A stretch of 57,769 nt of DNA from a virus, in IMG/VR virus record IMGVR_UViG_3300006754_000018, positions 1 to 57,769 of that record, one strand, 5' to 3'. Both the position numbers and the translations under genes were made by a program. The notes below the pieces were generated by a model. That model was not told the DNA's origin, did not search any database, and worked only from the letters and a program-made list of their open reading frames with translations. The stretch's first letter is position 1, and each line of letters opens with the position of its first letter. This document shows, one piece after another, positions 854-13,422 of this stretch.

Positions 854-909
854 ATTATACAGCAAATCGCTGTCTAATGGGAGAACACTATGCCAGTTCC
901 TTAACTGTC
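854..909 (-). promoter_or_regulatory. Dyad-associated promoter, copy 1
   Basis: TATAAT at 854-859 (minus) has no -35 box. Its dyad is GACAGT-N6-ACTGGC (892-909), with 32 bases between the proximal half-site and the -10. A small hairpin ACAGC/GCTGT lies directly upstream of the -10. It drives the 822 gene. The same arrangement recurs at ten more places up to 11.9 kb. Confidence 0.6.
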
Positions 910-971
910 CTTTATTGCTTTACATAAGACTCAAAGTGTGTTACTATGCTTTATAAACCCTTACAGAGTTA

Positions 972-1000
972 AGTATACAGGAGTTTCGGAGGATTGTCAA
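972..1000 (-). promoter_or_regulatory. Sigma70-type early promoter (TTGACA-N17-TATACT)
   Basis: Minus strand: a perfect TTGACA (995-1000), a 17-base spacer, and TATACT (972-977). It points at the 822 gene about 150 bases downstream. T4-like phages are known to use host sigma70 for early genes. Confidence 0.6.
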
Positions 1001-1237
1001 GTAGTTTGTAACACTCAGATCCTTATGATTGGGTTTCGTGACATTATATGAACTTCCTTGACATTTCCGAGGATTCGTGATAGACTGCTGCCCAAGATCA
1101 CTATAATTCGCTACCTTTATTCAACGTTAATCACGAAAGCAATATATCACACAAGTACGTTTATTTAACCTTTTATTTAATACACTAAAAACAACACTTT
1201 TTCCACAAAGTAATACAAATCTGTGGAAAACTATGTG

Positions 1238-1330
1238 TTAATTGTGTATAACTTGTGTAACTAATACTCCTATTCCGAGTATCACTGAAGCAAGGACAAC
1301 TGCATCCATTCCTAGTAACATTGCCATCAT
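1238..1330 (-). CDS. Very small membrane protein, 30 aa
   Basis: ATG at 1330 overlaps the TGA stop of the upstream gene as ATGA, the usual sign of translational coupling, and the stop is at 1238-1240. The product begins MMAMLLGMDAVVLASVI and is one hydrophobic helix (residues 4-25) followed by QVIHN. No family is recognised. Overlap, strand and composition support a real gene. A membrane location is inferred from the single transmembrane segment. Confidence 0.6.
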   Translation of the reverse strand: MMAMLLGMDAVVLASVILGIGVLVTQVIHN

Positions 1331-1527
1331 ACATTGTCCCTCTGAATGTAATTAATCTTCCCTATCAGTTGTTGTAACATAGAGTAGATATTACCACTCT
1401 CGGATACATTTAAATCATCATACTTTTGTAAGTTCTCTAACACTAACAGTTTTAACAAAGATAACTCTTCCTTAGAGAAAGTACCTCCCTTAAGTGTAGC
1501 ATTCAATGAATTGATTGTCTCTTGCAT
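1327..1527 (-). CDS. Hypothetical protein, 66 aa
   Basis: Starts MQETINSLNATLKGG at 1527. It looks mostly helical (leucine-rich, residues 15-60), and the spacing suggests a short amphipathic or coiled-coil protein. Family unknown. The two TTTTCCACA motifs at 1541-1562 lie 14-35 bases upstream of the start. The stop overlaps the start of the 30-residue membrane protein by four bases. Confidence 0.6.
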   Translation of the reverse strand: MQETINSLNATLKGGTFSKEELSLLKLLVLENLQKYDDLNVSESGNIYSMLQQLIGKINYIQRDNV

Positions 1528-1602
1528 AATAATAGTTACCTGTGGAAAAGTGTTGTGGAAAAGTTGTATATTACGTTAGTAATGTTCAACGGTATGTAAT
1601 AC

Positions 1603-1785
1603 TCAAATATCATAACTTAGTTCAAATTCTATCTCATACTCCTCGTATTCTACTTCACGAAAGTTATCATCAGGATCATACAATCTGTTAAAGAAAGTAA
1701 CACTATCCTCTTGAACATGTTTAACGAAACGTGTTACAGAAGACGGTCTAATTGCATTGAGCAAAGTAATACTATTTCCTGTCAT
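1603..1785 (-). CDS. Hypothetical acidic protein, 60 aa
   Basis: I chose the ATG at 1785 (MTGNSITLLNAIRPSS) because GGAAG precedes it and it overlaps the upstream gene by only 14 bases. The upstream ATG at 1839 would add 18 residues but overlap the neighbour by 68 bases. The C-terminus is acidic and aromatic (YEEYEIEFELSYDI). No family recognised. Confidence 0.5.
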   Translation of the reverse strand: MTGNSITLLNAIRPSSVTRFVKHVQEDSVTFFNRLYDPDDNFREVEYEEYEIEFELSYDI

Positions 1786-1981
1786 TCTTCCGTCCTCTGT
1801 TGTTACGTCTAGATGCAATTTGTCCGAGGTTTTCGACATAAACCTCTTTTACCTTTTCGTTATCTTTCAGTTGTAGCAATTCTTTCCAATTCCAGTTACT
1901 TGGTTGCACACAGTTCTTATCATTAACTGTGAAATCTAAAGTAACTCTATAACGTGTAACATGCGGTGTTTGAACGGACAT
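1772..1981 (-). CDS. Conserved small cyanophage protein, 69 aa
   Basis: ATG at 1981, with GGGAG-type purines just upstream. Begins MSVQTPHVTRYRVTLDF, then a Trp-rich NWNWKELL and an acidic helix. This beta-then-helix pattern (RYRVTLDF ... WKELL) resembles the 2187-2381 product (YEVTLTIK ... WIPDVV), so the two may be distant paralogs (inference). First gene behind the perfect sigma70-type promoter at 2011-2039. Confidence 0.6.
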   Translation of the reverse strand: MSVQTPHVTRYRVTLDFTVNDKNCVQPSNWNWKELLQLKDNEKVKEVYVENLGQIASRRNNRGRKNDRK

Positions 1982-2010
1982 GGAAGGGAGAAAATAGAAG
2001 AACTATTGTT

Positions 2011-2039
2011 ATTATATAGGAGTGATATTGATATGTCAA
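2011..2039 (-). promoter_or_regulatory. Perfect consensus sigma70 promoter
   Basis: Minus strand: TTGACA (2034-2039), exactly 17 bases, TATAAT (2011-2016). It lies 30 bases upstream of the ATG at 1981. An early promoter read by host RNA polymerase is the natural interpretation. Confidence 0.85.
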
Positions 2040-2186
2040 GTATTATAACGAACTTGTGTTAATATCACTGGTTGGTTAATACTTATGGAGAACGATTGTG
2101 TCTTGTGAGTGTTAAAAAATCTGCGGCGTTCGTCTCGGAGAGACTCACACAATGAGAGACAAATAGAAGGAGATAATTATAAAGAA

Positions 2187-2381
2187 TTACCATGAAAATG
2201 GGTTCTCCTCGTTATCACTTTGTTCAATCAAATTGCAATCCCAATCTAACAACTTCTCATCCATAATTAAACACTCATTAACAACGTCTGGGATCCATTT
2301 ACGGGGGTGTTGATGACACTTAATGGTCAATGTTACCTCGTATTCCTTATACTCGGTAGAGGACGATTTGGTTGTACTCAT
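2187..2381 (-). CDS. Conserved small cyanophage protein, 64 aa
   Basis: ATG at 2381 overlaps the TGA of the upstream 43-residue gene (ATGA). Begins MSTTKSSSTEYKEYEVTLTI, then His-rich HQHPRKW and an acidic tail. It has the same strand-then-tryptophan layout as the 1772-1981 product. Last gene of the operon that starts at 3173. Confidence 0.6.
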   Translation of the reverse strand: MSTTKSSSTEYKEYEVTLTIKCHQHPRKWIPDVVNECLIMDEKLLDWDCNLIEQSDNEENPFSW

Positions 2382-2509
2382 TGTAAAGAATCCTCGAATC
2401 TTTGTCTTGCAATTGATTCACATTGTTCCTCATCATACTGTGGAAAGTATTCATCAAGAACTTCTTCGTAGATAGTTTCTAGGAGTGATTCGTGGTGTAA
2501 AACTGACAT
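2378..2509 (-). CDS. Small conserved cyanophage protein, 43 aa
   Basis: ATG at 2509 follows directly on the TAA of the gene upstream, and its TGA overlaps the next ATG. Begins MSVLHHESLLETIYEE and looks fully helical and acidic. I recall proteins with this MSVLHHESLLE start in other cyanophages; their function is unknown. Confidence 0.65.
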   Translation of the reverse strand: MSVLHHESLLETIYEEVLDEYFPQYDEEQCESIARQRFEDSLQ

Positions 2510-2758
2510 TTAGAGACCTCTCTGATTAACAAATTGATAGGGTGATTTAGTGTTATCGGTTATTATATAATCACCTGAATCGTTCTTCTCTATAATATCA
2601 CTTCCAAGTGCGTAATCGTTAAGGATAACTTTATATTGAGTACGTCCATTAAGTGTAACAACCTTTAGGTTATTATCGGGAATTGGTTTGTTATTTAAGA
2701 TTGATTTTGTTGGATAGTAATCAATAACGAGATTACCTGATTTGTCTTGTATTTGCAT
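2510..2758 (-). CDS. Hypothetical protein, 82 aa
   Basis: I chose the ATG at 2758 (MQIQDKSGNLVIDYY) because it overlaps the upstream stop as TGATG; the codon before it is GTG. The composition is that of a small beta-rich domain (alternating hydrophobics, NGRTQYKVILNDY). No family recognised. Confidence 0.6.
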   Translation of the reverse strand: MQIQDKSGNLVIDYYPTKSILNNKPIPDNNLKVVTLNGRTQYKVILNDYALGSDIIEKNDSGDYIITDNTKSPYQFVNQRGL

Positions 2759-2994
2759 CACTTACTCCATGATAGATTGTATTTTTCAAGTATAATATCT
2801 CTTACATTTTCCCTGTCTAAACTATCACCATCACCCCACGTATAATGTGGAAAAGATGGATAACAACACATCTGTAAATATAACCAACTAACCGTCAATA
2901 TCATTTCCTTTGTTATACCTTCAATAGGGTATAATCCATCGTCTGAGTTATAGAAACTCCAGACATATTCAATGAAATCAGGAAGATCATTCAT
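2758..2994 (-). CDS. Conserved cyanophage protein, 78 aa
   Basis: Begins MNDLPDFIEYVWSFY and ends with the helical SLDRENVRDIILEKYNLSW. From memory, this N-terminus and the SLDRE..VRDI segment occur in other T4-like cyanophages without assigned function. It is in the middle of the coupled operon 3173-2187. Confidence 0.7.
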   Translation of the reverse strand: MNDLPDFIEYVWSFYNSDDGLYPIEGITKEMILTVSWLYLQMCCYPSFPHYTWGDGDSLDRENVRDIILEKYNLSWSK

Positions 2995-3017
2995 GGTTAA
3001 TGTGTTTAAATAAAGGA

Positions 3018-3173
3018 CTAATTAGATAAGAAATACTCTTTAACATCTTCAGAAGGATTGATGAGTTGTTCATAAACTTCCTTAGACAATTGTGTAAAGT
3101 TCTTATCAGTTTGTGATTCTTTTTTGATTGTTACGGTGTAACGATCTTCACCACATTTGAAAGTTGCAGACAT
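3018..3173 (-). CDS. Small hypothetical protein, 51 aa
   Basis: ATG at 3173, stop at 3018-3020. Begins MSATFKCGEDRYTVTIKK with a helical C-terminal half (NFTQLSKEVYEQLI). First gene of the operon that runs to 2187, 43 bases downstream of the -10 of dyad promoter copy 2. No family recognised. Confidence 0.55.
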   Translation of the reverse strand: MSATFKCGEDRYTVTIKKESQTDKNFTQLSKEVYEQLINPSEDVKEYFLSN

Positions 3174-3215
3174 TTAGTAAGAAATAAAATGACTGTGGAA
3201 TTCCTCCACTCTTTA

Positions 3216-3270
3216 ATAATACATCATTTAGGGGACAAATGGGGAATATATAGACACTTAAATTAGTGTC
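3216..3270 (-). promoter_or_regulatory. Dyad-associated promoter, copy 2
   Basis: Minus strand: perfect dyad GACACT-N6-AGTGTC (3253-3270), 31 bases, then TATTAT (3216-3221). It drives the operon 3173-2187. Confidence 0.6.
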
Positions 3271-3329
3271 ACACAGTTTTACCATTTGGGGTCATTGTAT
3301 GTTAGTAAGTGTTACTGTATTTGGCATGA

Positions 3330-3557
3330 TTACTGACCTCTATGTGATAATGAACCTGCGTAATTAACTTTGTTAAGTAATTCCGTCTTGTAAATGTCTA
3401 ATAGGTGAGATACATTTAGATCTTGCAATCCGTCCCACTCTTTAACATAATCCTCATTGTTAAAATCACCTGTATTATCTACAAATGATGGACAACTTCT
3501 GAATTCATATTCATCATCAACCCAGAAATGTCTTCCGAAAGTTTCACTTTGAAACAT
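3330..3557 (-). CDS. Hypothetical protein, 75 aa
   Basis: ATG at 3557; begins MFQSETFGRHFWVDDEYEF. Acidic and aromatic in its first half, with a helical LQDLNVSHLLDIYKTELL segment. Family unknown. Fourteen bases separate it from the stop of the preceding gene, suggesting cotranscription from the 3890 gene. Confidence 0.55.
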   Translation of the reverse strand: MFQSETFGRHFWVDDEYEFRSCPSFVDNTGDFNNEDYVKEWDGLQDLNVSHLLDIYKTELLNKVNYAGSLSHRGQ

Positions 3558-3571
3558 GATGATTGTCCTCC

Positions 3572-3721
3572 TTAATAGTTCTTTAGTGTTCTATGTGGTG
3601 GATACACATAGTTTCTGTTATTCTCAAATTGAATAACATGATTGTATGGGTGATTCTTATCACCTATCACCTCTACAGTTGCTGTTACTTTAGAGGGACG
3701 ATTGTTGGAATTAGTTGTCAT
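3572..3721 (-). CDS. Small hypothetical protein, 49 aa
   Basis: ATG at 3721 overlaps the end of the upstream gene by 11 bases; an upstream GTG at 3754 is possible but would overlap by 44 bases. Begins MTTNSNNRPSKVTATVEV and looks beta-rich with a basic end. No family recognised. Confidence 0.55.
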   Translation of the reverse strand: MTTNSNNRPSKVTATVEVIGDKNHPYNHVIQFENNRNYVYPPHRTLKNY

Positions 3722-3890
3722 TTGGATTTGGGAATTGATTGAGGTGTGCTTCACTTAGTCCGTTAATCATTGACCATACCATTTCACCACTTAATTGATT
3801 CTCTCTGCAAATATATTCTACTGCGTCTTCTACAACTTCTTTAACTTCAAGTGCATCCTTTTGTAGATACTCAGGAATCTGATCTGACAT
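3711..3890 (-). CDS. Conserved small cyanophage protein, 59 aa
   Basis: ATG at 3890, TAA at 3711-3713. Begins MSDQIPEYLQKDALEVKE, then CRENQLSGEMVWSMI; mostly helical and acidic. I recall similar sequences in marine myoviruses, without known function. It lies directly downstream of the terminator at 3913-3940; a TATAAC at 3899-3904 may serve as its -10, but no dyad is in place there. Confidence 0.65.
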   Translation of the reverse strand: MSDQIPEYLQKDALEVKEVVEDAVEYICRENQLSGEMVWSMINGLSEAHLNQFPNPNDN

Positions 3891-3912
3891 GATTAAATGT
3901 TATAAAAGGACA

Positions 3913-3940
3913 TAAAAAGAACCTACAATGAGTAGGTTCC
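3913..3940 (-). terminator. Intrinsic terminator containing the stop codon of the 4162 gene
   Basis: Minus strand: stem GAACCTAC/GTAGGTTC (3919-3926 with 3932-3939) plus five T. The TAG stop at 3923-3925 lies inside the stem, so gene end and terminator are merged. Confidence 0.75.
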
Positions 3941-4162
3941 TGACTTTGTTAGTTGATAAAGTGACTCAATCTTTGAATCAATTGAATTAACTCTATCTGA
4001 CACACTACGACCCCCAAGTAACTCACTAGGGTGTGCATTTGGATCATCATAATTGATGTAATCCTCTAACGCACATGAGATGGTTTCCCACTCGTCATTA
4101 GTAAAAAATGATTTGATTGTTTCTCTCTGGTCGAAAGAATAATCTTGAACAGTTGTTTTCAT
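3923..4162 (-). CDS. Conserved hypothetical protein, 79 aa
   Basis: ATG at 4162; begins MKTTVQDYSFDQRETIKS, followed by TNDEWETISCALEDYI and a C-terminal helix. Family not recognised. A single-gene unit: dyad promoter copy 3 upstream and a terminator that overlaps its stop. Confidence 0.65.
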   Translation of the reverse strand: MKTTVQDYSFDQRETIKSFFTNDEWETISCALEDYINYDDPNAHPSELLGGRSVSDRVNSIDSKIESLYQLTKSGTYSL

Positions 4163-4191
4163 TTGAATGAATCCTTTTGATGTACAAGTAC

Positions 4192-4248
4192 ATCATAACA
4201 TAAAAAACCACCCTCATGGGGTGGTCTTGTGACAGTTATTCAAGTGGT
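4192..4248 (-). promoter_or_regulatory. Dyad-associated promoter, copy 3
   Basis: Minus strand: ACCACT-N6-ACTGTC (4231-4248), 33 bases containing the terminator of the preceding gene, then TATGAT (4192-4197). It drives the 4162 gene. Confidence 0.55.
4202..4226 (-). terminator. Intrinsic terminator of the 4584 gene
   Basis: Minus strand: stem ACCACCC/GGGTGGT (4207-4213 with 4219-4225) followed by six T. It sits between the dyad and the -10 of the next promoter. Confidence 0.8.
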
Positions 4249-4584
4249 TTAGTTGAACGCACGTTTGTAAGAATCTTTGACATAATTAACAGATTGAACA
4301 ACAAATGGTTTAGAATTGTTGTAACCTTTAACGACATCTTTCCAGAGTTCTTGTGTTTCCCACTGGTGAATGTTCCATCTAATCTTTATATCGTCCTGAT
4401 AATCTTTCAAAGAAAGATTAGGATTTGCAGGACGTACATTTGTCTCTACTTTGTTATCTTCCATAACAACTTTTGCAATTGTCTTATTTAGTTGAGGTGA
4501 AGGATTCATAGAGGTTGTTGTTACTTTACGGGTGCGTCTTTTACGAGGAGTTGTTGTTTTCTTCGTGGTAGTTGCACTTGGCAT
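4249..4584 (-). CDS. Conserved cyanophage protein with basic N-terminal tail, 111 aa
   Basis: ATG at 4584. Residues 1-25 are a Thr/Lys/Arg-rich disordered tail (TTPRKRRTRKVTTT). The rest carries a conserved-looking block with IRWNIHQWETQELWKDV and ends VNYVKDSYKRAFN. I recall this C-terminal block from other cyanophages, unassigned. The basic tail could bind nucleic acid (inference). It forms its own unit between dyad promoter copy 4 and the terminator at 4202-4226. Confidence 0.7.
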   Translation of the reverse strand: MPSATTTKKTTTPRKRRTRKVTTTSMNPSPQLNKTIAKVVMEDNKVETNVRPANPNLSLKDYQDDIKIRWNIHQWETQELWKDVVKGYNNSKPFVVQSVNYVKDSYKRAFN

Positions 4585-4668
4585 AAGTTACATTTAGTAG
4601 AGTGAATAAGTGTAGAGAGGTTCGATTTAAAGACGATTAATTAACGTCACCCTTGCCTCTACTCTTAT

Positions 4669-4723
4669 ATTATACATGATTTCAAAGGGAATACAACCAA
4701 AAATGGACACTTTGCGAACTGTA
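4669..4723 (-). promoter_or_regulatory. Dyad-associated promoter, copy 4
   Basis: Minus strand: TACAGT-N6-AGTGTC (4706-4723), 31 bases, TATAAT (4669-4674). The dyad abuts the stop codon of the 4885 gene (4724). It drives the 4584 gene with an 85-base interval. Confidence 0.6.
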
Positions 4724-4885
4724 CTACAGGAAGTCGGTTCTGTACTTAAATGATGGTAACTTATTGCATAAGGATTGCAATACTTCAGTATCACCATCCT
4801 GTAAAGATGTTACAAAGTTAGTAACAAGAATGTCCTCTAATAATTGGTACTCATCCTCATTTAAGTTGAGTGTAAAATAGTTCAT
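4724..4885 (-). CDS. Small hypothetical protein, 53 aa
   Basis: ATG at 4885 overlaps the upstream TGA as ATGA; stop TAG at 4724-4726. Begins MNYFTLNLNEDEYQLLED, a pattern of a beta strand plus an acidic helix common in these small phage proteins. Last of seven coupled genes (6152-4724). Confidence 0.6.
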   Translation of the reverse strand: MNYFTLNLNEDEYQLLEDILVTNFVTSLQDGDTEVLQSLCNKLPSFKYRTDFL

Positions 4886-5061
4886 GCTGATACTTCCATC
4901 CATTTAATAGGGTTTCCAGTTGTTAGTTTCCATAGGTAAATTGGGCAACCTTCGTTATCATTAGACCAAGCATATGCTGCAGTCTTTGCTTCATCAAAGG
5001 TGTCATATTCCCTATTATAAGTTTCATCATAGTTGAAACTAATTGTTAGTGACCATTTCAT
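4882..5061 (-). CDS. Small hypothetical protein, 59 aa
   Basis: ATG at 5061 overlaps the upstream stop as TAATG; stop at 4882-4884. Begins MKWSLTISFNYDETYN, with a helix EAKTAAYAWSN and then a strand CPIYLWKL. No family recognised. Coupled on both sides. Confidence 0.6.
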   Translation of the reverse strand: MKWSLTISFNYDETYNREYDTFDEAKTAAYAWSNDNEGCPIYLWKLTTGNPIKWMEVSA

Positions 5062-5234
5062 TATCGTACCTGATAAGTGATACTGTCATCTGCATCTGCA
5101 AGATAACCTAACTTTTTAATAATGGAAGATTGTTGTACTGAGTATAAATCTTCTCTTACATCATACGCACGTTTCTGTAATATATCAATGAGGAAATCAC
5201 ACTCCCTCGCTGTTAAGTTAATTGACCCTTTCAT
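5061..5234 (-). CDS. Small hypothetical protein, 57 aa
   Basis: ATG at 5234 behind a strong GGAGG (5245-5249, spacing 10). Begins MKGSINLTARECDFLIDI and looks helical. Member of the coupled operon 6152-4724. Function unknown. Confidence 0.6.
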   Translation of the reverse strand: MKGSINLTARECDFLIDILQKRAYDVREDLYSVQQSSIIKKLGYLADADDSITYQVR

Positions 5235-5236
5235 TG

Positions 5237-5431
5237 TTAATTAACCTCCATATAATGATTGAAGTAAGTATCACTTACATCTTCATTATTCTCTTCTAAC
5301 TTCTTCCAAAATACATATGTATCCAGACCATTTCTATATTTTCTGTAAATATTACCATCACTAATAACATACTCAGAACCGATAGATGTCATCGTTGGAT
5401 GATTATGAACATGTTCAATCATTGGTGTCAT
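5237..5431 (-). CDS. Hypothetical protein, 64 aa
   Basis: ATG at 5431 overlaps the TGA of the gene upstream (ATGA). Begins MTPMIEHVHNHPTMTSI, with a His-rich start and an acidic end. No family recognised. Confidence 0.6.
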   Translation of the reverse strand: MTPMIEHVHNHPTMTSIGSEYVISDGNIYRKYRNGLDTYVFWKKLEENNEDVSDTYFNHYMEVN

Positions 5432-5667
5432 TCTTCTTTCCTCAATTCATCGTCAATTAAATCACTTATTATGTCATTATTATATGACCAATCTGAACCT
5501 GTAAAACGATCAATTACATTGTCTAATTGTTCATCAGTGAGAACAACTTCTTCACACTCAGCAACATTTAATACGTCTGCTTTTACATCAATAAATCTAC
5601 ACATAAAAGCATAATCGTTTGGACATTCAGATAACCATTGTTCAAGTGATTTGGTTGCAGTTTGCAT
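5428..5667 (-). CDS. Hypothetical acidic protein, 79 aa
   Basis: ATG at 5667 shares a base with the upstream stop (TAATG). Begins MQTATKSLEQWLSECPND. Strongly acidic and helical in the second half. Function unknown; coupled member of the operon. Confidence 0.6.
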   Translation of the reverse strand: MQTATKSLEQWLSECPNDYAFMCRFIDVKADVLNVAECEEVVLTDEQLDNVIDRFTGSDWSYNNDIISDLIDDELRKEE

Positions 5668-5951
5668 TAGTTTTCCTCCGAAAGTTGTTCTAGTTTGAGT
5701 AAAATACTACCATATTCTTCATCTTCTTTCTTATCAAACTCTCTGTGATTCTGTTCTAATGACCATATAATAAGATCTACTTCTGATTTAGTGAATTTAG
5801 GGGTCAAAGTTACACTGTCAGGTGTAATAATAACCTTTGCATCTAACTCACTATTTGTAGCATTGGGATTGGCAATTCCATGATAAACTCCATCATCGGA
5901 CTCCCAAAATCTCTTCCACTGTGTAGGATCGTTTGTTACATCTTTAATCAT
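5667..5951 (-). CDS. Hypothetical protein, 94 aa
   Basis: ATG at 5951, three bases after the upstream gene ends. Begins MIKDVTNDPTQWKRFWES; a strand segment KVIITPDSVTLTPKFTK is followed by helices. No family recognised. Confidence 0.6.
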   Translation of the reverse strand: MIKDVTNDPTQWKRFWESDDGVYHGIANPNATNSELDAKVIITPDSVTLTPKFTKSEVDLIIWSLEQNHREFDKKEDEEYGSILLKLEQLSEEN

Positions 5952-5954
5952 TGT

Positions 5955-6152
5955 TTATACCTCATCTCCTAAGATTGATCCTACTAATACTTCATATTCT
6001 TTCACTTCAGTATCACTTAGGCGATAAACATAGTCATCCAAAATTTGCTCTAATACAGACCTATCTTCCTTCACTACAAACATAAGATCATCAGTTAATT
6101 CTCTTCTACGTTGTAACTCTTCCTTTGATTTTGAAATGAAAGAAGTTTGCAT
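5955..6152 (-). CDS. Hypothetical protein, 65 aa
   Basis: ATG at 6152; begins MQTSFISKSKEELQRRRE, helical and highly charged. First gene of the seven-gene operon ending at 4724, 27 bases below the -10 of dyad promoter copy 5. Confidence 0.6.
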   Translation of the reverse strand: MQTSFISKSKEELQRRRELTDDLMFVVKEDRSVLEQILDDYVYRLSDTEVKEYEVLVGSILGDEV

Positions 6153-6178
6153 TAGTCTCCTTTTGTTGGTACTTTTAA

Positions 6179-6235
6179 ATTATACCATAAAAAAAGGGAG
6201 GTTTGAACCTCCCTTGTGACACTTATTTGACTGGT
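6179..6235 (-). promoter_or_regulatory. Dyad-associated promoter, copy 5
   Basis: Minus strand: ACCAGT-N6-AGTGTC (6218-6235, overlapping the stop of the 6666 gene), 33 bases holding an intrinsic terminator, then TATAAT (6179-6184). It drives the seven-gene operon 6152-4724. Confidence 0.65.
6189..6215 (-). terminator. Intrinsic terminator of the 6666 gene
   Basis: Minus strand: stem GGGAGGTT/AACCTCCC (6196-6203 with 6206-6213) and seven T. It is nested within dyad promoter copy 5. Confidence 0.85.
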
Positions 6236-6666
6236 ACGGGTGACAAGTAATCTCGTTCAAATTCCTCTACACTAACATCTGGGATGTCTTTAATCAATCC
6301 TACATTGTTATAAACATCGTAACATATCCAATCTCCATTATACCAAATGTAACCATATTCTGCACCACAATTATCACATCTTTCATAGAACTCTGTGATA
6401 GAATAATCTAACTCAGGAGGACTATCTTCGCTTCTCTCACTATAATATAAGGGACGAGGTTTCCCATCAATTTGTTTCAAATTCCAGTCACTATCTGTCA
6501 GGAGTGATGATATATCACCACCATCGATTAACTCACTAATTGAATCTTTGTCATTATATAAGTGTTCCAAAATAACACCATTGTACTGAGGATAACCATC
6601 CCAGTGACAATAAACAGAGACAATTCCTCCATTTAATTGTAATCCAATTCGTGATCTTGTACCCAT
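6223..6666 (-). CDS. Conserved phage protein (MGTRSRIG family), 147 aa
   Basis: ATG at 6666 with GGAG upstream. The N-terminus MGTRSRIGLQLNGG ... VYCHWDGYPQYNG is a widespread phage motif (from memory; function unassigned). Residues 95-115 carry CDNCG and a later Cys, which could be half of a metal site. No other domain is visible. Single-gene unit ending in the terminator at 6189-6215. Confidence 0.75.
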   Translation of the reverse strand: MGTRSRIGLQLNGGIVSVYCHWDGYPQYNGVILEHLYNDKDSISELIDGGDISSLLTDSDWNLKQIDGKPRPLYYSERSEDSPPELDYSITEFYERCDNCGAEYGYIWYNGDWICYDVYNNVGLIKDIPDVSVEEFERDYLSPVPVK

Positions 6667-6782
6667 GTTTGCTCCAATTAGTAAGTGAAAAAAGGAGGGG
6701 AAGTTCCTTAGTTATTTTACACAATCGTCATGTGTCTGCTTCTAAGTCAGACTAGATTGCAACCCCTATGTGTTACTCTATC

Positions 6783-6902
6783 TTATGAATTACCCTCCAC
6801 ATAAGCATCAATTGCGTCAAGAAGTTCTGCACCAGATTGTGCTTCTTCTAGTGAATATAGAAGGTCTTCTTGTGCTGTTTCAGGAGCGTTTTGCAAGGAC
6901 AT
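6783..6902 (-). CDS. Small hypothetical protein, 39 aa
   Basis: ATG at 6902, TAA at 6783-6785. Begins MSLQNAPETAQEDLLYS and is one acidic helix-rich chain (LEEAQSGAELLDAID). Probably the second gene of the unit starting at 7240. Function unknown. Confidence 0.5.
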   Translation of the reverse strand: MSLQNAPETAQEDLLYSLEEAQSGAELLDAIDAYVEGNS

Positions 6903-6970
6903 TGTAATAAAATAAGCAAGGTGAATTACCCAGTTTAAAGTCATATGATAGGACTAATTGGTCTATTTAA

Positions 6971-7240
6971 TTATAGATTTGCAGGATCAGATTCCATGAG
7001 ATTATTAACAGGTCTGAGTGCAATTCGTTCTGCAATTGCTACAACTAGATCCATTGACATCTCACCATCTAATTGACAAGTTCCGTCAGGTCTTTTGTTA
7101 CCCAATTTGTCACAAATTGCGTCACCAATTACTTCCATCAAAAACTCATTTAGACGAGGAAAATCATCCTCTATGTATGCTATAACTTCTGGTACAAGTA
7201 CATCAGCAAGTTGAGCAAGAGTAGATTCAGATAATGCCAT
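6971..7240 (-). CDS. Conserved cyanophage protein, 89 aa
   Basis: ATG at 7240; begins MALSESTLAQLADVLVPE; helical, with a Cys pair (AICDKLG ... GTCQLDG). A general function is not known to me. First gene behind dyad promoter copy 6, with a 74-base interval. Confidence 0.65.
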   Translation of the reverse strand: MALSESTLAQLADVLVPEVIAYIEDDFPRLNEFLMEVIGDAICDKLGNKRPDGTCQLDGEMSMDLVVAIAERIALRPVNNLMESDPANL

Positions 7241-7313
7241 TGATTGTTAATGAATGGGAGGTGGCGGGTGTTTCCTAACCAGTGTTGGATGTATAACCCC
7301 TGACCACTCTCTT

Positions 7314-7368
7314 ATAATACACGAGTTTGAATGGTTTGGGGAGAAATATGGACACTAATCAAAGTGTC
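7314..7368 (-). promoter_or_regulatory. Dyad-associated promoter, copy 6
   Basis: Minus strand: perfect dyad GACACT-N6-AGTGTC (7351-7368), 31 bases, TATTAT (7314-7319). It drives the 7240 gene. It shares more than the dyad with copies 2 and 4: a C-rich tract midway and an AAGAG following the -10. Confidence 0.6.
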
Positions 7369-7375
7369 ACATGAT

Positions 7376-8290
7376 CTAACGTTTCCAATTCTGTCTTATA
7401 GTAAAGTTTGCATAAGAGAATTGTTTGCGATTAACTAACTTATAAGTTCCATACTTATTAGTCATAACATAACCTTCATGGGTGCATTTATCATCACCAA
7501 TGTAACATTCAACCTCTTCATCTGTTCCAATTCCTGTCATCAATAAGAGTTTAATCTCTCTGATAAAATTATATAGATGGAAGAGATTTGCATGACATCC
7601 TGTCTCTTTTGCAAGATCATTTGGATTCAATTCTCTCTGTTCCCTGATGAACTTATTAACAATAGTCTTGATAACTTCACCTTCTTTCTTATCAGGGAAC
7701 TTAACAAATCTGATTGCAGTTTGAGCAAGTCCAAGTAACAAATCAACAGTGAATGGTGTATAAACTATATTCGCATTTGTTGATAGAAACTTAACCTCTT
7801 CTGCCCTCGCATCTTTATAGTTAAACTCTGCAATCATTGACTGCAAAGTATTACCAACGTACTTAGTATGTGCAGCAAAAACTATATCTTCATCTACATT
7901 CTTATCAAACTTATAGGTAATTGTGTTGGGTGTGTATTCATTACCACCACCAAATCCTATGAAATCACCTTGATAAACTCCCTTAATCCTAGGTAGTTTC
8001 TCATAACATAGATGAAGGATTGATGCAACCGCAGGTGTATCCCCATGATTAACTTCAATGTCATAGTGTGTATAATTGACCTTAATCTTTACCTTATTAA
8101 ATACACTCTTCGTTCCTACAAAAAACTTATTATTCTCTGGATTTATACCCCAAACAACAGCAGGAGCACCGTCATACTTTACTGACAGTTCGCTACTCTT
8201 CTCTCTAAGGAATTGGATGATAGTGTGAGCACCATCTCTACCCTTATTAAGGATTGAATCTTCAGGATGTTCGAGGTGTTTGTTTTTCAT
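7376..8290 (-). CDS. Nucleotidyltransferase-like protein of the DNA/RNA ligase fold (probable DUF6267 family)
   Basis: Start chosen at the ATG 8290 (MKNKHLEHPED), matching relatives I recall; the in-frame GTG at 8314 is upstream of the putative promoter. Length is 304 residues. Visible motifs in the order used by covalent nucleotidyltransferases: KYDG (motif I, Lys 38), GVYQGDFIG (motif III-like), HEGYVM (motif IV-like, near residue 272) and YKLV (motif V-like Lys, near 284). ATP-dependent ligases and RNA ligases form lysyl-AMP at the KxDG lysine. Here the activity and substrate are inferred, not shown. Homologs are usually left unannotated. Confidence 0.7.
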   Translation of the reverse strand: MKNKHLEHPEDSILNKGRDGAHTIIQFLREKSSELSVKYDGAPAVVWGINPENNKFFVGTKSVFNKVKIKVNYTHYDIEVNHGDTPAVASILHLCYEKLPRIKGVYQGDFIGFGGGNEYTPNTITYKFDKNVDEDIVFAAHTKYVGNTLQSMIAEFNYKDARAEEVKFLSTNANIVYTPFTVDLLLGLAQTAIRFVKFPDKKEGEVIKTIVNKFIREQRELNPNDLAKETGCHANLFHLYNFIREIKLLLMTGIGTDEEVECYIGDDKCTHEGYVMTNKYGTYKLVNRKQFSYANFTIRQNWKR

Positions 8291-8296
8291 ACTTAT

Positions 8297-8353
8297 AGTA
8301 TGACACAGAATCACCCAAAAATCAAGCGGTCTTGTGACACTTTGTCAAGTGTC
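8297..8353 (-). promoter_or_regulatory. Dyad-associated promoter, copy 7
   Basis: Minus strand: perfect dyad GACACT-N6-AGTGTC (8336-8353), 33 bases, then CATACT (8297-8302) with an extended TG. Transcription would start at about 8290, the A of the ATG, so the message could be leaderless. The -10 is the weakest part. Confidence 0.45.
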
Positions 8354-8539
8354 TCACTTAACCTGTTGTGTTCCTTTTCTTTTGTTAGTCTGTACTTTCT
8401 TACTTCCCCGATCAAAACAATCTTGTAGTTCCTCAACTGCATCAACGTTTGCTTCATCTTTCTCTTCAGAATAGAAGAACAGTGCTTCACTCAAGAGGTT
8501 GTATTGTTGGTTGGTTAGTTTTAAATTAAGTTGGTACAT
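8354..8539 (-). CDS. Hypothetical protein, 61 aa
   Basis: ATG at 8539 shares a base with the stop of the oxygenase gene (TAATG). Begins MYQLNLKLTNQQYNLLSE, and ends in a basic Lys/Arg/Gln tail. No family recognised. Confidence 0.6.
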   Translation of the reverse strand: MYQLNLKLTNQQYNLLSEALFFYSEEKDEANVDAVEELQDCFDRGSKKVQTNKRKGTQQVK

Positions 8540-9144
8540 TACTTCAATGGAATGTTAAATGCCATAATAGTTCTTCTCACCTCTGATTGATTATTTGGTG
8601 CCTCATGTAATAACATAGAAGGGAACATAAGTATATCTCCCTCCTCAACTTGAGGTGTTGCATCTGAATAAAATCCAGTCCAAGGATCAACATAAGGTGA
8701 GTAGAATTTAGCGCCTAAATGATAGTTTGGATCAAATTCAAGATACAAACAACATGACACATTTCCTACTCCATGATTATGAGCACCATGATAGTGCCCA
8801 TTATCATAACTTTGTGACCATAATTGCCAAGGTGATTCTTTAGGAGTACATAGTAAATGTTTTCTCTCTTCTGAATCATAACCCATTGGAGGTGGAACTA
8901 ATATATCACCTTGATTAAAGATGTCATTAAAATCATCTTTAAGGATGTCTATCCAGTCTTCAAAGTAACTAGGATTGCCCTTTTCAGTATAGAAATCAGT
9001 ATGAACTGTATCTCCAGATTGTAACACACCATCATCAGAAAAGTCAAGTAGTGACAACAATTTGGGTTTCTTTTCCTCCCAATTTGTTATACTATACTTA
9101 AAAATGTTGATTTGAAATATAGGTGCAAGTGAAATTTGATTCAT
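8539..9144 (-). CDS. 2OG-Fe(II) oxygenase-like protein, 201 aa
   Basis: Double-stranded beta-helix pattern of the phage 2-oxoglutarate/iron oxygenase group (TIGR02466-like). Metal ligands: HxH in YHGAHNHG and the distal His in FPSMLLHEAP; the 2OG-binding Arg follows in VRRTIMAFNI. The substrate is unknown. ATG at 9144 overlaps the upstream TGA (ATGA). One of eleven such proteins in the window. Confidence 0.8.
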   Translation of the reverse strand: MNQISLAPIFQINIFKYSITNWEEKKPKLLSLLDFSDDGVLQSGDTVHTDFYTEKGNPSYFEDWIDILKDDFNDIFNQGDILVPPPMGYDSEERKHLLCTPKESPWQLWSQSYDNGHYHGAHNHGVGNVSCCLYLEFDPNYHLGAKFYSPYVDPWTGFYSDATPQVEEGDILMFPSMLLHEAPNNQSEVRRTIMAFNIPLK

Positions 9145-9299
9145 TTCTTTTTCCTCTGTATCCTATCTTTTTTTCTTAATGGTGTCTTTCTACCAGTCTT
9201 TAATTCTTTCTTCAACTGTCTAAGGTACTTCAAGTGTCGTTTGAGTGGATAAACCATAGACTCTAAATCTTTTTGAGTCCGTTTATCATCTCTATTCAC
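9141..9299 (-). CDS. Small very basic protein, 52 aa (GTG start)
   Basis: A GTG at 9299 follows the stop of the gene upstream by one base, and the TGA overlaps the next ATG. An internal ATG at 9257 would give 38 residues. The product (NRDDKRTQKDLESMVYPLKR at the start, ending KKDRIQRKKK) is about 40% Lys/Arg. It could bind nucleic acid or another protein's acidic surface; no family assigned. Confidence 0.55.
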   Translation of the reverse strand: MNRDDKRTQKDLESMVYPLKRHLKYLRQLKKELKTGRKTPLRKKDRIQRKKK

Positions 9300-9300
9300 A

Positions 9301-9528
9301 TTACTCTATTTCCTCCCATATAATGTTACTTAGGTCATCAATCTTCCAGTCAGTAATATCATCCATAAAGAACCAATGAGGTTGTTGTTCCTCATCAACT
9401 GTCATTTCTGACAGTATTGCTTCAGCATCTTCTAGTCTCAATTCATTAACTAATTCTTCCATTCGCTGTGCATATTGTGTCTCCACATTGTTAATGCAAT
9501 TGTCACGAATCTTGTCAATTTGTTTCAT
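9301..9528 (-). CDS. Hypothetical acidic protein, 75 aa
   Basis: ATG at 9528, one base after the stop of the membrane protein upstream. The in-frame extension to 9609 overlaps that gene and is not needed. Begins MKQIDKIRDNCINNVETQ; helical with a Trp-rich acidic end (PHWFFMDDITDWKIDD). Function unknown. Confidence 0.6.
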   Translation of the reverse strand: MKQIDKIRDNCINNVETQYAQRMEELVNELRLEDAEAILSEMTVDEEQQPHWFFMDDITDWKIDDLSNIIWEEIE

Positions 9529-9529
9529 G

Positions 9530-9697
9530 TTACTGAATAAGTTTGGATGGACGTTGTTGTAATTTAAAGTAAGTTTCTTGCTTAGTGTAAGAAGAACCAT
9601 TGTAATCACTGTTACCTACATTAACAAATACTGTCAATACTATTGCAATCATTGTTAATGAGGCAAACCAGATTACACTTGAATTGTTGTTATCCAT
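9530..9697 (-). CDS. Small single-pass membrane protein, 55 aa
   Basis: ATG at 9697 directly follows the TGA of the upstream gene; TAA at 9530-9532. MDNNNSSVIWFASLTMIA starts a hydrophobic segment (residues 8-27) followed by a polar, Tyr/Gln-rich tail. No family recognised. Tight packing between two genes supports it. Confidence 0.6.
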   Translation of the reverse strand: MDNNNSSVIWFASLTMIAIVLTVFVNVGNSDYNGSSYTKQETYFKLQQRPSKLIQ

Positions 9698-9913
9698 TCA
9701 CTCTACCTTCCAGTGTTCATTACCATTAACGGGAACCCAAAAATAGTATTCCCTTGTTAATGCTTTGAGGTTGATATATTTAATACCATCCTTAATCTGT
9801 TCATTTATGACAGTACATGTATGGAATTTATCCATCATGTTTGTAAAACGATCCTCTGCACTATTTGTTAGTGGAGTCACGCAAACTCGTTTGGTTTTAG
9901 TCTTAACTGTCAT
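9698..9913 (-). CDS. Hypothetical protein, 71 aa
   Basis: I chose the ATG at 9913 (MTVKTKTKRVCVTPL); a longer start at 9928 is possible. Ends YFWVPVNGNEHWKVE; the NGNEHWKV ending resembles other small cyanophage proteins I recall. First gene behind dyad promoter copy 8; operon 9913-8354. Confidence 0.6.
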   Translation of the reverse strand: MTVKTKTKRVCVTPLTNSAEDRFTNMMDKFHTCTVINEQIKDGIKYINLKALTREYYFWVPVNGNEHWKVE

Positions 9914-9935
9914 CAATGAACCTGACACTGTATAT

Positions 9936-9990
9936 ACATTAACACAGATTCAGTACAATGGAAATGTTATGTGACAGTTTCTTAACCGTC
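9936..9990 (-). promoter_or_regulatory. Dyad-associated promoter, copy 8 (weak -10)
   Basis: Minus strand: GACGGT-N6-ACTGTC (9973-9990, overlapping the helicase stop codon), 31 bases, TAATGT (9936-9941) with an extended TG. TATATA five bases further downstream is an alternative -10. Confidence 0.4.
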
Positions 9991-11218
9991 ATTTTCTAAC
10001 TTGACTTACTACTGGTTCTCCTTTATCAAAGATAGTATTAACGACAGTTTGTAACCTTCTCTCTGTACTTATACCAACGTTATTATACACTGGTACGAAC
10101 ATTTTACCAAATGGTTTCTTATAATTATCGAAATCACATGGTTTTAAGTTACCACTATCAATGTTCTTGATGTCCTCTTTATGTAGTCTAATTACACGAC
10201 CTATAGTTTGGGTCATGGTAATATAGTCAAGGTTTCTCATAAGAATACATGCAGTTAATCCACTGACACTAATACCTTCAGAGAGAATTGAGTGGTGAAA
10301 CATGATAAACTTCTTATCAGGATTTGCACCCCATTCATTCATAATCTTGAAGAACTTATCCCTAGAAACTTTAACTCCGTTGATGATTGCACCATACTTA
10401 GATGTTATCCACAGTACATTATATTTCAATGCGTGACATTTAAGTTGGAAGTCAGTTTGTGTGAGTAAGTTACTAATATCTCTAGTAGATTTCGCAGTAA
10501 CTAACACTTTATCCATGTTATCTTGTGTCTTCAAGACATCAATTAACATCTGATTATCCCTGACATGAGTATCACCAATGTGGTCAGAATACTTCATTGA
10601 TTTAACTTGAGGTGGTATAATATACCCCTCATTGATAAGTCTTGGTGCAGGAACTTGTACTATTTCTTTACCAAATATCGGTTCAAAGTTCATCCCTACT
10701 TTATTAGGAGTGAGGGAATGTTTAGGAGTTGCAGTAAAGAAGTAACAACGATTTGACTTCTCTGATAGAGTCTGAACTGGTTCAATAAAGTTTCTTTGAA
10801 CACTGTTATGTGACTCATCAAAGTATATTGTATCAACATCAATGTATGACTCCACTATTCTCCTAAGAGAATGATATGTGGTAAAGATTAACTTATGTCC
10901 TCTAGTTCCTTTGTTCCAGAAATATATCTCTTCAACTTTTGTAGTAGATTGATGATTAGTCTCTCCACTATGTACATGCAAAACAGACACATTCTTGAGA
11001 ACTTTCAAGAATTCAGTAGAAAGTTGTTCTGCAAGTAGGATGCGAGGTGCAACAACTACAATTGTTTTGTTACTCCCAGATCCCAAATTAAATAGGATAC
11101 GTTCTGCATCCTTTATCATACATAGAGTCTTTCCACCACCAGTAGGGACTATGATTTGTCCCTTGTTAGTGTGTCGCATGACCTCTATGACTTCTTTTTG
11201 GTGTGTTCTAAGAGTCAT
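9989..11218 (-). CDS. Superfamily 2 DNA helicase (UvsW-like DExH), 409 aa
   Basis: Motifs in order: Q-motif Gln 7, Walker A PTGGGKT (residues 25-31), DESH box (134-137), motif III TATP (162-165), and motif VI-like QTIGRVIR in the C-terminal RecA domain. The layout matches type-III-restriction/UvsW helicases; T4 UvsW has about 500 residues, so this is a compact relative. Expected role: ATP-driven branch migration or strand separation in recombination-dependent replication. The exact T4 orthology is uncertain. Its promoter is dyad copy 9, 24 bases upstream. Confidence 0.8.
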   Translation of the reverse strand: MTLRTHQKEVIEVMRHTNKGQIIVPTGGGKTLCMIKDAERILFNLGSGSNKTIVVVAPRILLAEQLSTEFLKVLKNVSVLHVHSGETNHQSTTKVEEIYFWNKGTRGHKLIFTTYHSLRRIVESYIDVDTIYFDESHNSVQRNFIEPVQTLSEKSNRCYFFTATPKHSLTPNKVGMNFEPIFGKEIVQVPAPRLINEGYIIPPQVKSMKYSDHIGDTHVRDNQMLIDVLKTQDNMDKVLVTAKSTRDISNLLTQTDFQLKCHALKYNVLWITSKYGAIINGVKVSRDKFFKIMNEWGANPDKKFIMFHHSILSEGISVSGLTACILMRNLDYITMTQTIGRVIRLHKEDIKNIDSGNLKPCDFDNYKKPFGKMFVPVYNNVGISTERRLQTVVNTIFDKGEPVVSQVRK

Positions 11219-11241
11219 TAAGTCTTTCGATCAATAGAATA

Positions 11242-11297
11242 ATTATAAACTAAAAAACCCCCTAGTAGGGGGTTTGGGGGACAGTTCAGAGTTCGTC
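11242..11297 (-). promoter_or_regulatory. Dyad-associated promoter, copy 9
   Basis: Minus strand: proximal half-site ACTGTC (11280-11285), 32 bases holding an intrinsic terminator, TATAAT (11242-11247). The distal half (GACGAA) is degenerate. It drives the helicase. Confidence 0.55.
11252..11277 (-). terminator. Intrinsic terminator of the 11522 gene
   Basis: Minus strand: an A/C-rich half pairs with GGGGGTTT-type sequence (AACCCCCT/AGGGGGTT) and runs into six T. It lies between dyad and -10 of the helicase promoter. Confidence 0.8.
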
Positions 11298-11522
11298 CAT
11301 CATCTCAACCATTTCATCATGGTTGATAGTAGGATTGTCCCACTTAACCCCGTCGCCAGTGGTGGGCATTCCACCGTTCAACATACATCTGATGAACTTG
11401 ACGTAAGGGGTCTCGTCTTCGGGACAAAACTTGACACATGCCTTAGCGGTGTTGTACAAAAACTCATCATTGCCAATCCAGAGAGAAGCGTTCCAAGTCT
11501 CGTAGTTTTCCCAACCGTTCAT
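11286..11522 (-). CDS. NYETWN-family protein (DUF7249-like), 78 aa
   Basis: Begins MNGWENYETWNASLWIGND, a motif found in many phages and some plastid/bacterial proteins (from memory) without a known activity. Three Cys follow in a helical part (KACVKFC, IRCML). Single-gene unit between dyad promoter copy 10 and the terminator at 11252-11277. Confidence 0.75.
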   Translation of the reverse strand: MNGWENYETWNASLWIGNDEFLYNTAKACVKFCPEDETPYVKFIRCMLNGGMPTTGDGVKWDNPTINHDEMVEMMDEL

Positions 11523-11547
11523 GGAGTCTCGTCGTATGTACCCCTGT

Positions 11548-11603
11548 ATTATGGCATAAAAAACCCCCTTGTGGGGGGTTTATGTGACACTATCAGAACT
11601 GGT
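11548..11603 (-). promoter_or_regulatory. Dyad-associated promoter, copy 10
   Basis: Minus strand: ACCAGT-N6-AGTGTC (11586-11603, overlapping the preceding stop), 32 bases with a terminator, CATAAT (11548-11553). It drives the 11522 gene. Confidence 0.6.
11557..11581 (-). terminator. Intrinsic terminator of the 11733 gene
   Basis: Minus strand: stem AACCCCC/GGGGGTT (11562-11568 with 11574-11580) followed by T residues, 12 bases after the stop at 11593. Confidence 0.8.
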
Positions 11604-11733
11604 TGAGTAGTTTGAGTGTGTCTGCATCAAATTTCTCTCTCACACCCGATGTAGGTAACCAGTCCTCTTCATTTGATTCTGTTAATGTTTCCCATGAATC
11701 ATCATTGTGAGGTAGGAACTCAAAATCTTCCAT
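11593..11733 (-). CDS. Conserved-looking protein; 46 aa from the first ATG, frame open for 99 codons
   Basis: The first ATG (11733) gives MEDFEFLPHNDDSWETL ... to the TGA at 11593. The same frame stays open upstream with protein-like sequence (CYINNGETNKGKDLFPLF, then HLGEYSLSFVSPHLYSLKY) but without ATG, GTG or TTG. It reaches ATA at 11892, exactly where ATGA overlap with the upstream stop would be expected if that TAA were TGA. The gene is therefore either truncated by start loss or initiates at AUA. Dyad promoter copy 11 would produce a message starting within this frame. Confidence 0.55.
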   Translation of the reverse strand: MEDFEFLPHNDDSWETLTESNEEDWLPTSGVREKFDADTLKLLNQF

Positions 11734-11844
11734 AATATACTTCAAAGAATATAGGTGAGGAGAAACAAAACTAAGGGAGTATTCACCGAGGTGACCACTG
11801 AATAGGGGGAATAAATCCTTGCCCTTGTTTGTTTCTCCATTATT

Positions 11845-11901
11845 AATATAACAGATGTTACCTAATAATGCAAGTGGGGTTGTGACACTTATCCAACTGG
11901 T
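11845..11901 (-). promoter_or_regulatory. Dyad-associated promoter, copy 11
   Basis: Minus strand: ACCAGT-N6-AGTGTC (11884-11901, overlapping the stop at 11889), 33 bases, TATATT (11845-11850). No terminator in the spacer. It would transcribe the 11733 gene. Confidence 0.5.
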
Positions 11902-12176
11902 GGTTCGCCTGGTTGTGCTGCTACCTGTCCTTCTAGATCAAACTTAGATGCAGCAGTATTTGATGCGTCAAGTTGATTGATTACTGCCCATGCTGCTTTA
12001 ATATCTTCTTGTTGTTTGAATAAAGCAGAATTTAACAATCCTTCCAAAGATGATATTCTCTCATCCATATTACCAACAGTTTGTGATAATACCTTCACTT
12101 GTTTGCGAAGACTATCAATACCTTGTAATTTTGCGTCTAGATTTGCTTCAGGGGAAGCAAGTGTTTCGTATGCCAT
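11889..12176 (-). CDS. Conserved cyanophage protein with coiled coil, 95 aa
   Basis: ATG at 12176, 20 bases from a late promoter octamer, so probably a late (virion or assembly) protein. Residues 15-75 are heptad-like (QGIDSLRKQVKVLSQTVGN); the C-terminus is Pro/Gly-rich (QPGEPPVG). Function unknown; a small structural protein is the likeliest guess. Confidence 0.65.
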   Translation of the reverse strand: MAYETLASPEANLDAKLQGIDSLRKQVKVLSQTVGNMDERISSLEGLLNSALFKQQEDIKAAWAVINQLDASNTAASKFDLEGQVAAQPGEPPVG

Positions 12177-12195
12177 AACTAATCTTTAACTGATC

Positions 12196-12203
12196 TATTT
12201 ATT
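12196..12203 (-). promoter_or_regulatory. Late promoter AATAAATA
   Basis: Exact match to the NATAAATA late element described for marine T4-like cyanophages, 20 bases upstream of the 12176 ATG, within the end of the preceding gene. Confidence 0.6.
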
Positions 12204-12420
12204 GTGTAAGTTGTATGAATTTAGATGCGGATACTATTAACATAAAGGATAACATTGCCACTACATCATATGCTTTAGTTCTTACAAAGAATGGTATGCT
12301 TAATAAGCATGCTATTGCATGTAACATTGTACCATAAAATACATTTACATGCAATACAATAAAATAGGCAGATACGACCAAAACTGATCCTATCTGCCTA
12401 CTAATCGTCACTGTTCTCAT
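12199..12420 (-). CDS. Small integral membrane protein, 73 aa
   Basis: Begins MRTVTISRQIGSVLVVSAYF. Two or three hydrophobic segments (about 9-28, 31-47 and 52-67) cover most of the chain. No family recognised. The stop is close to the late promoter of the next gene. Confidence 0.6.
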   Translation of the reverse strand: MRTVTISRQIGSVLVVSAYFIVLHVNVFYGTMLHAIACLLSIPFFVRTKAYDVVAMLSFMLIVSASKFIQLTQ

Positions 12421-12422
12421 TA

Positions 12423-12611
12423 TTAATTGCCAGGAGGTGGTGCGTACATTTCAACAAGTAACCAATCATACTTATCAACCTTTGATTTACATGAAGGACA
12501 CTGAATTGAAGTCCAATCAAAATGATATATTTGATTTGTTACTTTACATATAGGGCAGGTAATTGGTTTCCCTTCTTTACCTGCCCTTGTGTGTTTTGTT
12601 ACTTTCTGCAT
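12423..12611 (-). CDS. Small zinc-ribbon protein, 62 aa
   Basis: Two CxxC knuckles, CPIC (Cys 19/22) and CPSC (Cys 38/41), spaced by 15 residues, are typical of a zinc ribbon. The basic N-terminus KHTRAGKEGK would fit nucleic-acid or polymerase contact, but this is inference. Ends with Pro-rich APPPGN. Packed between its neighbours with gaps of two to four bases. Confidence 0.7.
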   Translation of the reverse strand: MQKVTKHTRAGKEGKPITCPICKVTNQIYHFDWTSIQCPSCKSKVDKYDWLLVEMYAPPPGN

Positions 12612-13041: not shown

Positions 13042-13113
13042 AAGTCATTTTCTTGATTACTTTATTAGTATAACCCATATTCTAGGGTTGTGACAATACT
13101 ATGTGCCACTTAA

Positions 13114-13422
13114 TCAATTGACACCTATCCACACCTTAAATCCCCACCACAACAGAAAAGGTACAATCACTGCCCATAAATGGTAAAAGAGTGTTATCAA
13201 AAGAGTACCAAGTATAATCCAACCTGTTTCTGAACTAACAATACTTGTAACAAAAGGTGTTACTACATTAGGTCTATTCTCTGGAATTACATGAACATCA
13301 CTTGTACCATATCTTGCCCTTGCTTCACTTAACGCATCTTCTCTGTTAATACTTAAACTTTCAAAGGGAACATTTACCCTCCTATTAGTTTTAGTTGTTG
13401 TCCATAGTCTCCAGTTGAACAT
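13114..13422 (-). CDS. Hypothetical membrane protein, 102 aa
   Basis: Residues 1-60 are soluble and basic (TTTKTNRRVNVPFES). Residues 66-99 form one long or two short transmembrane segments (GWIILGTLLITLFYHLW, then VIVPFLLWWGFKVW). No family recognised. It ends the group of genes 15268-13114. Confidence 0.6.
   Translation of the reverse strand: MFNWRLWTTTKTNRRVNVPFESLSINREDALSEARARYGTSDVHVIPENRPNVVTPFVTSIVSSETGWIILGTLLITLFYHLWAVIVPFLLWWGFKVWIGVN

Follow-up and report, generated by a model that had tools for sequence, protein, structure and literature searches.

Probable dyad promoters in a cyanomyovirus fragment

The window analyzed here, that is the whole stretch of 57.8 kb, is an IMG/VR record that encodes a gp32-type ssDNA-binding protein, a UvsW-like helicase, PhoH, thymidylate synthase, transaldolase and peptide deformylase together with T4-type baseplate genes. 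This gene content identifies it as part of the genome of a marine T4-like cyanomyovirus. No close DNA match to the window was found among GenBank phages; among the gp32 matches listed, Synechococcus phage S-SSM7 has the nearest (77% identity). Two relatives, L007 and L008, are 94-96% identical to the window where they align. A tmRNA-like gene lies at 28258-28613 (minus strand); its tag contains ANNIVAFSR and resembles cyanobacterial tmRNA tags.

A preliminary description of this sequence proposed eleven minus-strand promoters in which a dyad is followed, after 31, 32 or 33 nt, by a -10-like hexamer. All eleven dyads are present with this spacing (Table 1). For the search we used a gapped matrix of two blocks (the 24-bp dyad, and the -10 with its flanks) plus a spacer distribution, trained on other phages only with the window excluded. 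Ten of the eleven sites scored above 8 (scores 10-54), and 60 first-order shuffles of the window gave a mean of 0.43 matches above 8 and none above 20. The remaining site, at 3253, combines a perfect dyad with a poor downstream part and stays below 8. No copy had been noticed to the right of 11.9 kb, but a high-scoring site lies at 13122(-). The dyad itself is real but wider than first thought, at 24 bp, and its promoter-proximal half is the better conserved. The sites at 9973 and 11280 both occupy conserved places, but the -10 of the former is weak and the latter has one half-site only. The observation is confirmed, and it reaches further than first described.

Table 1. Coordinates of dyad promoters and associated features (window positions unless a phage is named).
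Position (strand)	Feature	Elements	Gene or context	Matrix score
854..909 (-)	Dyad promoter	Core 909-892 (GACAGTTAAGGAACTGGC), 32 nt, TATAAT 859-854	Precedes ORF 595-822	42
3216..3270 (-)	Dyad promoter	Perfect dyad GACACT-N6-AGTGTC, 31 nt, TATTAT	Precedes ORF 3018-3173	Under leave-window-out cut
4192..4248 (-)	Dyad promoter	Dyad, spacer terminator, TGTTATGAT	Precedes ORF 3923-4162	33
4669..4723 (-)	Dyad promoter	Dyad, 31 nt, TGTATAAT	Precedes ORF 4249-4584	20
6179..6235 (-)	Dyad promoter	Dyad over upstream gene's stop codon, terminator hairpin, TGGTATAAT	Precedes ORF 5955-6152	44
7314..7368 (-)	Dyad promoter	Perfect dyad, 31 nt, TATTAT	Precedes ORF 6971-7240	25
8297..8353 (-)	Dyad promoter	Perfect dyad, TTGATT in -35 slot, CATACT	Precedes ORF 7376-8314 (DUF6267, phrog_455)	54
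9936..9990 (-)	Dyad promoter	Dyad, weak -10 TAATGT	Precedes ORF 9698-9928	14
11242..11297 (-)	Dyad promoter	Half-dyad, terminator, TATAAT	Precedes UvsW-like helicase 9989-11218	10
11284..11556 (-)	One-gene insertion	DUF7249 gene, GC 47% vs 35% around	Between two cassette copies	
11548..11603 (-)	Dyad promoter	Dyad, terminator, CATAAT	Precedes inserted gene 11286-11522	33
11845..11901 (-)	Dyad promoter	Dyad over upstream gene's end, 33 nt, TATATT	Precedes ORF 11593-11745	33
13067..13122 (-)	Dyad promoter	GTCAAT-N6-AGTGGC-aca, 32 nt, TATACT	Precedes ORF 12616-13041 (DUF7717)	47
P-SSM7 46911; Syn9 53894; S-SSM5 50213; ACG-2014f 58375; S-PM2 2015; IMG 2974673715 54139	AbrB/MazE-like protein			

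Anatomy and distribution of the element

The matrix consensus of the full motif reads tgtGMCAST-N6-ASTGKCaca, 31-33 nt, then (t)gcTATAATa, with RTA six positions past the -10 hexamer and an A-rich leader after RTA; the conserved purine of RTA would be the expected +1. In the window and ten cyanomyoviruses TATAAT-like hexamers peak 31, 32 and 33 nt past the dyad (11, 49 and 33 occurrences, vs mostly 0-4 elsewhere). It had been stated that none of the promoters has a -35 box. This holds for the consensus TTGACA, which is missing, but TTG or CCATT often stands in the -35 slot. TTG is found 16-18 nt before the -10 in 4 of the 9 matrix-scored window sites and in about 30% of sites over all genomes; its enrichment at 16-17 nt is sharp (49/186 sites vs 0-8 per neighboring position), and CCATT fills the slot of other dyad sites. 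Since the offset of TTG from the dyad core is 10 nt with 32-nt and 33-nt spacers alike, the dyad keeps a fixed phase with the -35 slot, and the last nucleotide of spacer variation falls between -35 and -10. An extended -10 (TGn) is present in 78/186 sites (42%). With these frequencies of TTG and TGn, some sites may work unaided.

By a strict rule, 35/186 sites (19%) carry an intrinsic terminator in the spacer, compared with 0/558 control segments. In 34 of these 35 the center of the terminator loop lies 17-22 nt upstream of the -10, which places it over the -35 slot, and at S-SSM5 42129 the hairpin is built around TTGACA. With the loop in the slot, a compact cassette would end transcription of one gene and begin that of the next.

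The dyad could also be mainly a recombination or structural element (an RNA hairpin, a cruciform or a homology tag) beside an ordinary promoter. Perfect copies are able to fold as RNA hairpins, and cassettes mark gene gain and loss. However, the arms show no compensatory covariation (59 complementary S/S pairs observed vs 72 expected), so we read the dyad as a site that a protein dimer recognizes in DNA rather than as an RNA structure, and dropped the hairpin/cruciform reading. The fixed spacing to the -10, and the conservation of dyad and spacing in relatives despite drift of the flanking sequence, also speak against a mainly structural role, which we consider very unlikely. Fully divergent use of one dyad was rejected as a general scheme: a P-SSM2 dyad with good promoter parts on both sides is the single clear case among 209.

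Related cyanophages carry the same arrangement. In ten other cyanomyoviruses (S-SSM7, P-SSM7, ACG-2014f, Syn9, S-SSM5, S-PM2, P-HM2, P-SSM4, P-SSM2 and IMG 2974673715) the matrix finds 12-40 sites above 16 per genome, or 208 with the window included, vs 0.67 in shuffles. Among genomes outside the training set, the freshwater phage S-CRM01 has many sites and S-TIM5 about 10 in a diverged form. The matrix scan gave no site in T4, pelagiphage HTVC008M or phiM12; the GenBank record of HTVC008M is also assigned to Kyanoviridae. The strict dyad was not found in KVP40 or Ma-LMM01. In IMG/VR viral contigs the strict pattern matches at least 120 stretches vs 9 with the spacing shortened by 8. This pair replaced an earlier, looser control (spacing 41-43, 73 stretches vs at least 120), which was weak because the loose pattern matches by chance and many of the control contigs are themselves from cyanophages. 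Kyanoviridae proteins are encoded by 218 of 224 matrix-positive loci. The shuffle and spacing controls, with the absence from T4, HTVC008M and phiM12, refute a chance or compositional artefact, whose probability we put close to nil.

The strict pattern, which matches 37 sites in the cyanophage set, was also run against 84,980 species genomes of bacteria and archaea, where it was found only in contaminating cyanophage contigs and in no cyanobacterial genome. One of them, the 188-kb contig NZ_RMVE01000006.1 (L332/L336) filed under Nonlabens xiamenensis 1Q3, is 98% identical to P-TIM40 over the 8 kb compared; judged by its sequence, it is a contaminating cyanophage genome. Contig NHFO01000063 (L334) of the MAG TMED113 is also cyanophage-like.

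Promoter class and the candidate regulator

Dyad promoters lie mostly upstream of small ORFans, in one cluster. The UvsW-like helicase gene is preceded by one in the window (11280), S-SSM7 (39339), Syn9 (49081) and relatives L009-L012; further genes behind them are DUF6267/phrog_455 and, in P-HM2, cobS and a peptidase gene. The same phages have canonical TTGACA promoters (188 vs 46 in shuffles), of which only 6 carry the dyad. This near exclusion points to two promoter classes, and canonical sigma70 early promoters (TTGACA-N16-18-TATAAT) were rejected as a description of the dyad sites. Canonical promoters precede a gene that we take, by sequence recognition, to encode a gp55-like sigma factor (9 genomes), hli (8), mazG (7) and a presumed gp43-like polymerase gene (5), identified in the same way. 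In the window, TTGACA-17-TATAAT-like promoters without a dyad occur at 351, 1000, 2039 and 48052 (-), the last of which precedes gp32. Auxiliary metabolic genes (AMGs) and nucleic-acid genes form the middle class in cultured cyanomyoviruses (PMC5082946, PMC7238727). As such genes carry canonical promoters, the earlier label "middle-type" for the dyad promoters is not favored; their position before small ORFans would fit an early or a separate class at least as well.

The suggestion that these promoters depend on an activator receives indirect support from a class that has an upstream dyad and a sub-consensus -35 and is distinct from the canonical TTGACA promoters. Like T4 middle promoters, the sites place a phage-specific element, in lieu of a consensus -35, above a good sigma70 -10 that about half the time has TGn. 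In contrast, the dyad is centered near -54 and the T4 MotA box at -30. That box (TGCTT/GCTT, 13 nt above the -10, as defined in PMC2988021) was not found at this offset in the 186 sites. The absence of MotA and AsiA held up: PF09114 and PF09010 match only T4 among 14 records, one of which, the window, is a fragment. For lack of MotA, AsiA and the MotA box in these searches, MotA/AsiA-type promoters were rejected. The host sigma70-type -10, often with TGn, is shared with T4 early promoters (UP/-35/TGn/-10), but here the -35 is sub-consensus, the dyad takes the UP position, and the phages have separate canonical TTGACA promoters. T4 late promoters (TATAAATA, gp55-dependent, no upstream sigma70 elements) were rejected, the consensus here being TATAATA with upstream elements.

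We consider it probable that these sites form a class of host-sigma promoters, that a dyad-bound dimer activates them, and that they are packed as cassettes resembling the promoter early stem-loops (PeSLs) of T4-like phages. Host sigma70-type (SigA) RNA polymerase would read each promoter. The upstream half would be a 24-bp operator, tgtGMCAST-N6-ASTGKCaca, to which a protein dimer presumably binds and activates transcription; the binder may be phage-encoded, virion-delivered or of host origin. The dyad core would span about -62 to -45. As it ends 10 nt before the -35 slot, the dyad center would be about two helical turns upstream of the slot. There the dimer may lie next to region 4 of sigma and the C-terminal domains of alpha, and so compensate for the sub-consensus -35. 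Transcription would probably start at the purine 6-7 nt past the -10 and give a short A-rich leader.

The same sequence evidence could be cited for a repressor or shut-off operator, at which a phage dimer silences the genes later on promoters that are otherwise constitutive, and many sites do have a usable -10, TGn or a partial -35. Yet the dyad leaves the promoter core free, being placed upstream of the -35 slot at a fixed spacing, and it is nearly absent from consensus-TTGACA promoters. All of these features are more typical of activators; repression thus seems decidedly improbable to us.

The distribution by host would fit a phage-encoded dimer as well as one from the host. The dyad may be the operator of a cyanobacterial transcription factor that phages exploit for host-activated early promoters. 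Only T4-like phages that infect cyanobacteria have the element, be they marine, freshwater or the divergent S-TIM5, and HTVC008M lacks it; a host factor would act from the start of infection, and known middle genes are already behind canonical promoters. On the other hand, the strict pattern is in no cyanobacterial genome, which argues against a host regulon built in this way. By inspection, moreover, the dyad is neither the NtcA box (GTA-N8-TAC) nor the Pho box (CTTA-N7-CTTA) as defined in PMC3037559; NtcA/Pho box promoters were rejected on the matrix consensus. We rate a host operator as possible but rather unlikely.

A more specific form of the activator reading is that an undescribed phage-encoded dimeric activator replaces MotA/AsiA at 10-40 promoters per genome, acting through a -35-phased 24-bp dyad in a terminator-bearing, mobile stop-and-start cassette that reshuffles the accessory genome. 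We hold it tentatively, leaning slightly to doubt. A search for the binder by phylogenetic profile returned conserved cyanophage-specific small proteins without DNA-binding Pfam domains. Two such families, of 67 aa and 99 aa, are represented at window 55446-55649 (-) and in L120, L065, L431, L352 and L126, and often adjoin each other near dyad promoters. Predicted structure models of the two families matched no known fold and no DNA-binding fold. Of 12 motif-bearing phages searched, 6 encode a small AbrB/MazE-like protein (under the Pfam cut-off) at or near one end of their dyad cluster (Table 1), and it was not found in S-SSM7, P-SSM2, P-SSM4, P-HM2, S-CRM01 or S-TIM5; this protein is a weak candidate for the regulator.

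Cassettes and a proposed exchange of accessory genes

PeSLs (Arbiol 2010; Comeau 2014), as described in PMC4503421 and PMC3950731, are short composites of a promoter and a stem-loop/terminator between accessory genes of T4-like phages and have been implicated in modular shuffling. The dyad cassettes share this composite, in which the terminator is optional. What stays constant here is the 24-bp dyad with its set spacing to the -10. The PeSL descriptions in these two sources mention no such dyad, and it is by such descriptions that we set the two apart. Single stem-loops in S-PM2 were reported in PMC4503421, whose authors considered PeSLs an improbable explanation of the ORFan region of that phage; one of those stem-loops, at 11369-11391, falls inside a dyad cassette. 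A further parallel is HGTV-1, an archaeal tailed virus in which a conserved TATA and an inverted repeat before ORFs were likened to PeSLs (PMC3950731). In one half of that genome most ORFs are preceded by such a box and repeat, a layout like that of the dyad promoters, but the box is an archaeal TATA box with no demonstrated relation to ours, and the likeness is one of described layout.

Short cassettes that resemble each other, at about 10-40 per genome and located between accessory genes, would allow homologous recombination to add, remove and move genes together with their regulation. The idea that genes arrive with their own regulation in this way is supported by examples. L007 and L008 lack 11284-11556, and a single hybrid cassette takes the place of cassette A, the DUF7249 gene and cassette B; in it the dyad is that of A, whereas the terminator and -10 are those of B, and the matches overlap by 33 bp in the relative. 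The module 3011-3279 (a promoter and a 51-aa gene) is at another position in L008. When ACG-2014f isolates are compared, cassettes contain 15 of the 27 ends of indels (11/21 when merged; p about 2e-6), in this one species group and vs an expected 10% that is not an intergenic-only null. In ACG-2014f (KJ019092) the whole cassette at 44731-44835 is exactly absent from Syn7803US30, where the flanking genes overlap by 4 nt. Other cases do not conform: between P-HM1 and P-HM2, 0 of 4 indel breakpoints are at cassettes, and the 9.5-kb deletion of S-PM2d (PMC4503421) runs from 5799 to 15339, neither of which is at a cassette, so that a cassette-cassette event was rejected. Comparison of these genomes thus supports cassette-guided exchange by example and does not prove it in general.

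Cyanomyoviruses are among the best-known marine phages, and time-course transcriptomes exist for them. All marine cyanomyovirus genomes that we scanned have the dyad class, and the T4-like phages checked from other hosts lack it; with such a class defined by sequence, the order of pre-late transcription in cyanomyoviruses becomes testable, and the matrix can be used to mark the regulon in metagenomic contigs. From its sequence, the dyad cassette looks like a shared, movable control unit placed before small accessory genes of ocean and lake cyanophages, a concrete unit that would let an ORFan-rich region gain genes that are expressed at once.
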